Source of the DNA: Microcaldota archaeon
Lineage (GTDB): Archaea; Micrarchaeota; Micrarchaeia; Micrarchaeales; CABMGC01
Reading direction: 5' to 3'
Assembly (NCBI GenBank): GCA_021850625.1
Contig: JAJZLJ010000002.1
Location: 1-64,000 of the forward strand
Length of the DNA stretch: 64,000 bases
Below the pieces are notes generated by a model that saw only the letters and a list, made by a program, of their open reading frames with translations, had not been told where the DNA came from and searched no databases. The translations under genes and the position numbers were made by a program. This document shows, in pieces, positions 21,626 to 57,446 of this stretch; within the stretch, counting starts at the first letter, position 1; the number at the start of each line of letters is the position of its first letter.

Positions 21626-22588
21626 TTGTCTGAAAATAATAAAAATAATAATTTTAGAAAAAATAGATTTAACAATAAAAGAAATGATCATCATGGAAAA
21701 TGGATGAGTAATAATAAAAATAAAGGTAATATAAGAGAACATAGTTTTAATGAAAGAAATGACGATGCTAGAAGAGCAAGATTTATGAGAAAGGCTCGTG
21801 GGGATGTGATAACTGCATACAAAGCAACTGCATTGGATCACTCTATAATAGAGGCTATAAAGGCATATAATGAGCTTGAAAAGGTAAGAAATATTGTTTA
21901 TGAAAGACTTGAGGAGTGGTATAGCGCATATTTTCCAAATGTAAAGATGGGAAATCATGAAACCTACGCCAGAATAATAACAAGCGTGAAAAACAAGGAA
22001 ATAGATGAAACAGTTTTGAAAGGGATAGTAGGAGATGACATCTCACATATAACAAATGGGATAAACTCTTCTCAGGGTTTTTCTGAGATTGATGAAGAAG
22101 AGTATAAAACGCTTAAGAAACTAGCTGAAGAAGAGCTTTCGATAATAAAGCTCCAAGAGATACTTGAGAAATTTCTTGAAGTGCAGACTAAAAAATTAAT
22201 ACCTAACATAGTATATCTTATAGATTATAAAATTGCGGCAGAGATGCTGAGCATGGCAGGATCTATAGAGCATCTTGCAGTTATGCCAGCAAGCACCATT
22301 CAACTTCTTGGAGCTGAAAAAGCCCTGTTTAAGCATATGAAGTTTGGCTCACGACCGCCAAAGTATGGATATCTTTTCAAACTGCCGGAGCTTGCGAATA
22401 TGGATAAGAAAGAGAAGGGAAGGATGGCTCGTGTGTACGCCACAAAGATAAGCATAGCTGCTAGAGCTGATTTTTACACTAAGAGATTCATAGCTGATAC
22501 ACTAAAAGAACAGATAAATAGTATTATGAAAAGAAAGCCGCATACTCAGAAAAATAACCATAATGAAGATACTTTTTCTCAAGATTGA
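21626..22588 (+). CDS. Nop5/Nop56 family protein lacking the usual N-terminal domain
   Basis: Nop-domain AAEMLSMAGSIEHLAVMPASTIQLLGAEKALFKHMKFGSRPPKYGYLF; preceded by an Asn/Arg/Lys-rich tail. TTG start 6 nt after GGTG. Confidence 0.88.
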   Translation: MSENNKNNNFRKNRFNNKRNDHHGKWMSNNKNKGNIREHSFNERNDDARRARFMRKARGDVITAYKATALDHSIIEAIKAYNELEKVRNIVYERLEEWYSAYFPNVKMGNHETYARIITSVKNKEIDETVLKGIVGDDISHITNGINSSQGFSEIDEEEYKTLKKLAEEELSIIKLQEILEKFLEVQTKKLIPNIVYLIDYKIAAEMLSMAGSIEHLAVMPASTIQLLGAEKALFKHMKFGSRPPKYGYLFKLPELANMDKKEKGRMARVYATKISIAARADFYTKRFIADTLKEQINSIMKRKPHTQKNNHNEDTFSQD

Positions 22589-57308: not shown

Positions 57309-57446
57309 GGGGTTGTTGCGTAATCTGGCAGCGCGGCAGGCTCCAGATGTTTAATAATCTTTGAGCCTTATGGCAGTGATGAAGATCTGGAAGTTTGAAA
57401 AATATGAAGTAACCTGCATGTCCGGGTTCAAATCCCGGCAACCCCA
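57309..57446 (+). tRNA. tRNA-Trp(CCA) with 65-nt intron at 37/38
   Basis: GGGGTTG TT GCG..CGC G GCAGG CTCCAG [intron 57347-57411] A CCTGC ... TCCGGGTTCAAATCCCGG-type T arm, CAACCCC A; anticodon CCA. Confidence 0.93.
57347..57411 (+). ncRNA. tRNA-Trp intron with circularly permuted box C/D guide RNA architecture
   Basis: D-like TTGA (57361-57364), GCC-TTAT-GGC hairpin (57365-57374), C GTGATGA (57376-57382), guide ATCTGGA (57385-57391) complementary to TCCAGAT over the anticodon, D'-like TTGA (57395-57398). Confidence 0.75.

Follow-up and report, generated by a model that had tools for sequence, protein, structure and literature searches.

A box C/D guide intron in tRNA-Trp, apparently kept for C34 methylation alone across an order of small-genome archaea

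Introns in archaeal pre-tRNA-Trp include a class that doubles as box C/D guide RNA. In Haloferax volcanii an intron of this class directs 2'-O-methylation at C34 and U39 (Cm34 and Um39), as established experimentally (reviewed in PMC4090602 and PMC11408192), and further reviews describe both modifications as directed by euryarchaeal pre-tRNA-Trp introns (PMC7994747, PMC2584109). The H. volcanii intron is dispensable, and the published median length of archaeal tRNA-Trp introns is 65 nt (PMC4090602). Circular tRNA-Trp introns were detected in every archaeon covered by one re-analysis (PMC12558985), and a 62-nt circle is described in Thermococcus kodakarensis (PMC9014305). Nanoarchaeum equitans has a permuted C/D RNA, sRNA24, for which a circle was detected, and a C/D intron in tRNA-Met (PMC3491384).

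The window, the whole 64,000-nucleotide stretch of DNA analysed here, carries a tRNA-Trp gene with an intron whose features are collected in Table 1. Rfam matches the gene as a tRNA whose anticodon loop carries a long insertion; ARAGORN made no call for it, and Rfam at relaxed thresholds returned tRNA only, with no C/D family match. Our covariance model R1 scores the gene at E 4.5e-37, a value obtained on one of the model's own training sequences. Read from the sequence, C34 is 57343, G37 is 57346, A38 is 57412 and C39 is 57413, and because the first intron base and A38 are both A, moving the intron boundaries by 1 nt leaves the spliced tRNA the same. The window also encodes a homologue of Nop5, and fibrillarin is encoded elsewhere in the genome, outside the window; both assignments are confirmed by Pfam.

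Table 1. Coordinates of the tRNA-Trp gene, its intron elements and the Nop5 gene in the window
Feature	Position	Strand	Basis or remark
Nop5 (Nop56/58) homologue, box C/D RNP core protein	21869-22525	+	Pfam PF01798, E 4e-47
tRNA-Trp(CCA) gene with intron	57309-57446	+	Rfam RF00005, 48.6 bits, E 2.4e-7
5' exon, positions 1-37	57309-57346	+	Sequence; anticodon CCA at 57343-57345
Guide-1 target TCCAGAT, covering anticodon and 5' splice junction	57342-57348	+	Sequence; co-variation in Thermoproteota
Intron, 65 nt, canonical position 37/38	57347-57411	+	Sequence; identical place in 110 relatives
Former guide-2 segment	57347-57360	+	3 of 9 pairs at the 3' splice junction in the position-39 register
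TGTTT, 5' strand of the intron-side helix of the bulge-helix-bulge (BHB)	57348-57352	+	Pairs with 57400-57404; weak co-variation in relatives, p 0.02
Box D TTGA	57361-57364	+	NTGA in 102 of 106 scored relatives (53 TTGA, 46 ATGA, 3 GTGA)
Hairpin GCC-TTAT-GGC between D and C, which closes the C/D motif	57365-57374	+	Pair conservation
Box C GTGATGA	57376-57382	+	RTGAT or RTGAC in every relative scored by script
Guide 1 ATCTGGA	57385-57391	+	7 Watson-Crick pairs with 57342-57348; G57390 opposite C34
Box D' TTGA	57395-57398	+	N+5 register to C34
Box C' ATGAAGT, 5 nt beyond D'	57404-57410	+	103 of 110 relatives have RTGA close to the 3' end
GAAG, 3' strand of the BHB central helix	57406-57409	+	Pairs with CTCC 57341-57344, with a C34.A mismatch; a GAAG-NN end is common to short introns outside the order
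3' exon, positions 38-73	57412-57446	+	Sequence; C39 is 57413

From 5' to 3' the intron consists of the guide-2 segment, D, hairpin, C, guide 1, D' and C'. A preliminary description made from the sequence had located a 65-nt intron with TTGA, GCC-TTAT-GGC, GTGATGA, ATCTGGA and a further TTGA, and every coordinate that we checked is correct; the C'-like ATGAAGT, absent from that description, brings the number of boxes to four, C' and D' being weaker than C and D. The perfect pairing of ATCTGGA with TCCAGAT that it reported is likewise confirmed, and G57390, the fifth nucleotide upstream of D', points to C34 under the N+5 rule. When the intron was shuffled 200,000 times with its dinucleotides preserved, 226 shuffles contained the D-hairpin-C motif, 215 contained a 7-bp guide with D' in the C34 register, and none contained both. 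The preliminary description's proposal of a box C/D guide RNA, with C34 as the predicted site of 2'-O-methylation, is supported.

This arrangement is maintained by the window's relatives. We searched 149 relatives from its genus, family and order and parsed 110 tRNA-Trp genes, all of which contain the intron (108 distinct sequences, 59-85 nt, median 67), a count to be read with the search in mind: the query was the full 138-nt gene, so copies with an intron were more likely to be picked up. No convincing tRNA-Trp match came from 21 of the 149 genomes, where incomplete assemblies could be hiding counterexamples. Counting from the first base of box C, the G opposite C34 lies 14 nt further on in 102 of 103 relatives within the order. 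The two hairpin pairs that adjoin the boxes are kept in 36 of 36 aligned sequences, with one changed on both sides, and the third pair is partly unpaired across the same set. D' is looser: its GA lies at the N+5 offset in 64 of 108 introns, every other offset from 2 to 13 accounting for at most 10%, and the box is degenerate in about 40% of relatives. C' overlaps the splicing-helix strand GAAG, and short introns of other orders that lack C/D boxes mostly end in AGAAG, so conservation of C' is partly confounded with that of a splicing motif, although the TGA that precedes it is not. Four introns of the order (L166, L171, L177 and L180) have an extra hairpin at their 5' end, beside the splice site.

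Comparison with other archaea places the intron in the known class. Like the window intron, the euryarchaeal introns, including those of H. volcanii and sR50 of Pyrococcus, sit at the 37/38 site, lay guide 1 over the 5' junction with the N+5 position at C34, and have a BHB splicing fold that shares nucleotides with the guide fold. In Natrinema thermotolerans (CP031304.1) the box order is identical to that of the window: guide ACTGATATA, CTGA, stem-loop, GTGATGA, guide CCTCTGGAGT and CCGA. Guide ACTGATATA pairs with the 3' splice junction and places its N+5 base opposite U39, and guide CCTCTGGAGT pairs with ACTCCAG-AGG over the 5' junction and places its N+5 base opposite C34. This gene was found in plasmids with a haloarchaeal-like tRNA-Trp query typed from general knowledge, and the evidence is the retrieved sequence alone; the same query in phages returned nothing useful, and a pattern scan of viral contigs yielded no tRNA-Trp. 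The tRNA-Trp introns of Thermoproteota (L227-L255; 54-76 nt) share the box order, the C34 guide and a similar length, with the GA of D' at N+5 in 7 of 18. In Thermoproteota the first intron nucleotides and guide 1 co-vary (2.56 of 4 pairs, compared with 1.61 when shuffled; none of 2,000 shuffles as high), and this shows that pairing over the splice junction, and thus in unspliced RNA, is selected for; in the window's order the bases that could show such co-variation are nearly invariant. Two Thermoproteota tRNA-Trp genes (L246 and L251) carry, in addition to the C/D intron, an insertion in the D-arm region.

It is in guide 2 that the window's order departs from these comparators. In the euryarchaeal members guide 2 is complementary to the 3' junction and selects U39, whereas the window intron has no complementarity there and position 39 is C. 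That base alone does not forbid guiding, because C39 is the N+5 base in Thermoproteota, where guide 2 makes 8-9 of 9 pairs with the 3' junction in the position-39 register in 8 of 16 parsed introns (several reaching 9 of 9); in the window's order, with C39 in 106 of 110 genes, not one of 110 introns reaches 7 of 9 pairs, and the mean of 2.8 compares with 3.0 for shuffled guides. The preliminary description had noticed both the C at position 39 and a second guide lacking a target in this tRNA, and the 3 of 9 pairs found here bear it out. Guide 2 as a position-39 guide in the order is accordingly excluded by chance-level pairing. The 5' end of the segment, ATGTTT, is conserved on account of the guide-1 target and the splicing helix. 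The best reading is that the intron would be a four-box guide RNA with one working guide, whose guide 2 has lost its position-39 target in the whole order.

The intron could still be a dual guide if guide 2 had been retargeted to another RNA, rRNA or another tRNA, and the conserved D and C boxes of that half would fit such a history. Against it, the sequence and length of guide 2 differ within the genus, with AATCT, AGACT or GGACT adjoining D, and in a comparison with rRNA, which the preliminary description had proposed, the best complementarity was no better than that of shuffled guides for all six introns compared with genus LSU from two relatives and the partial SSU of the window genome. 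Within these sequences rRNA guiding drops out of the candidates, and we regard retargeting as a whole as very unlikely. A more radical alternative is that the intron is retained for its BHB splicing structure alone, the C/D boxes being relics or products of chance. Sister orders do manage with introns of 13-38 nt, and the H. volcanii intron can be dispensed with (PMC4090602); box C, guide 1, the 14-nt spacing and the D-C hairpin, however, are clearly constrained and none is part of the BHB, which leaves this explanation with next to no credit.

The preliminary description had also cast the intron as a special, circularly permuted and minimal C/D RNA, active mainly as an excised circle, with circularization supplying its natural ends. 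In its favour, circularization-requiring permuted C/D RNAs are known in N. equitans, and since circular tRNA-Trp introns are general in re-analysed archaea, a circular product is likely here as well. Its distinguishing claims are not supported. The guide2-D-stemloop-C-guide1-D' order recurs in Natrinema and Thermoproteota and is thus the ordinary layout of the class, so that a circle-dependent permutation can be set aside; 65 nt is the published median, so the intron is not minimal, and introns of Aenigmatarchaeota go down to 26 nt with one D/C pair. sRNA24 resembles the window intron in coming from a small-genome archaeon and in having D before C, but it is a stand-alone gene whose order makes sense solely as a circle (and the N. 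equitans C/D intron is in tRNA-Met rather than tRNA-Trp). The window intron, by comparison, closes the C/D motif with its own hairpin and separates D' from C' by 5 nt, which allows both motifs to form in the linear pre-tRNA; circularization is not needed for a functional box order. A circle would be required by guide 2, but this part shows no sign of being selected for a target and its spacing through a circle is not fixed (C' to D, mean 18 nt, s.d. 4.9 nt in the order), and guide 1 pairs over the 5' splice junction, as expected if it acts on unspliced pre-tRNA. Nothing in the sequence indicates a guide that would work mainly as a circle, and we think it highly improbable that this one does.

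We therefore consider it very probable that the intron belongs to the known class of box C/D guide RNAs in archaeal pre-tRNA-Trp and is retained here for a single task, the 2'-O-methylation of C34. In the mechanism we propose, L7Ae would bind the D-hairpin-C kink-turn and the D'/C' motif in the unspliced pre-tRNA, and Nop5 and fibrillarin would be positioned over the ATCTGGA/TCCAGAT duplex, so that C34 is methylated; alternatively, the guide may act in trans, from another pre-tRNA or from an excised intron. The RNA would then refold to a relaxed BHB on the same anticodon nucleotides. Such a BHB can be formed, and because its 57341-57344 strand overlaps the guide-1 target the two folds are mutually exclusive, at -40.1 kcal/mol for the guide fold and -31.3 kcal/mol for the BHB fold in a rough evaluation. 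The intron would finally be cut out and probably circularized. In this scheme the second half would retain its boxes, as a symmetric RNP would need, even as its guide is left without a position-39 target.

Outside the order the picture is more varied. The preliminary description had suggested looking for C/D and BHB elements in related genomes, and the retention seen throughout the order does not extend to the rest of the class: 20 tRNA-Trp genes fetched from the same class comprise 2 with a full C/D intron (L209 and L214), 1 with half of one (L208) and 17 with no recognizable C/D boxes, mostly short. The presence of many such relatives means that C34 methylation is not essential throughout the class. 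In the sister orders (L207, L210-L213 and L215-L226) introns without C/D boxes are mostly short, from 13 nt upward, and many end in AGAAGAA. Aenigmatarchaeota loci (L267-L295) share with the window intron a guide 1 whose D' is in the N+5 register to C34: the GA of D' has precisely that offset in 25 of 25 parsed introns (3.7 expected). These introns were the top matches to a model built on C/D introns, so the count does not give a fraction for the phylum. They differ from the window intron in having one guide and a single D/C pair, with a C box that follows a short loop or hairpin; the second pair is mostly gone. At mostly 26-50 nt, these loci (L268 and L274 among them) resemble natural half-size C/D guides, judging by their sequences. 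In another lineage, family f10 of the window's own class, L257 and L258 have introns of 38-42 nt with a CTGGAG guide, TTGA, a TCTTCGGA hairpin and one C box, again a half-size form. In the literature we searched, which did not include the main older papers on the intron, we found no description of natural half-size tRNA-intron guides.

The class, box order and length of the window intron are already known and ordinary; what sets it apart is the loss of the guide-2 target across the order. We lean, with only slightly more confidence than doubt, towards a stepwise reduction from a dual guide for C34 and position 39 (Thermoproteota and haloarchaea), through the four-box single guide of the window's order and the half-size guides of Aenigmatarchaeota and f10, to the plain short introns of sister orders. 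If this is true, the half-size introns, each acting on the precursor that contains it, would rank with the smallest C/D methylation guides found in nature. Overall, our analysis adds an order of small-genome archaea to the range of a known intron function, and shows that one of two guides can disappear without its boxes being lost. With the half-size introns alongside, this order supplies a natural series in which to ask if both halves of an archaeal C/D RNP are required for methylation, and for what reason C34 is kept but position 39 is not.
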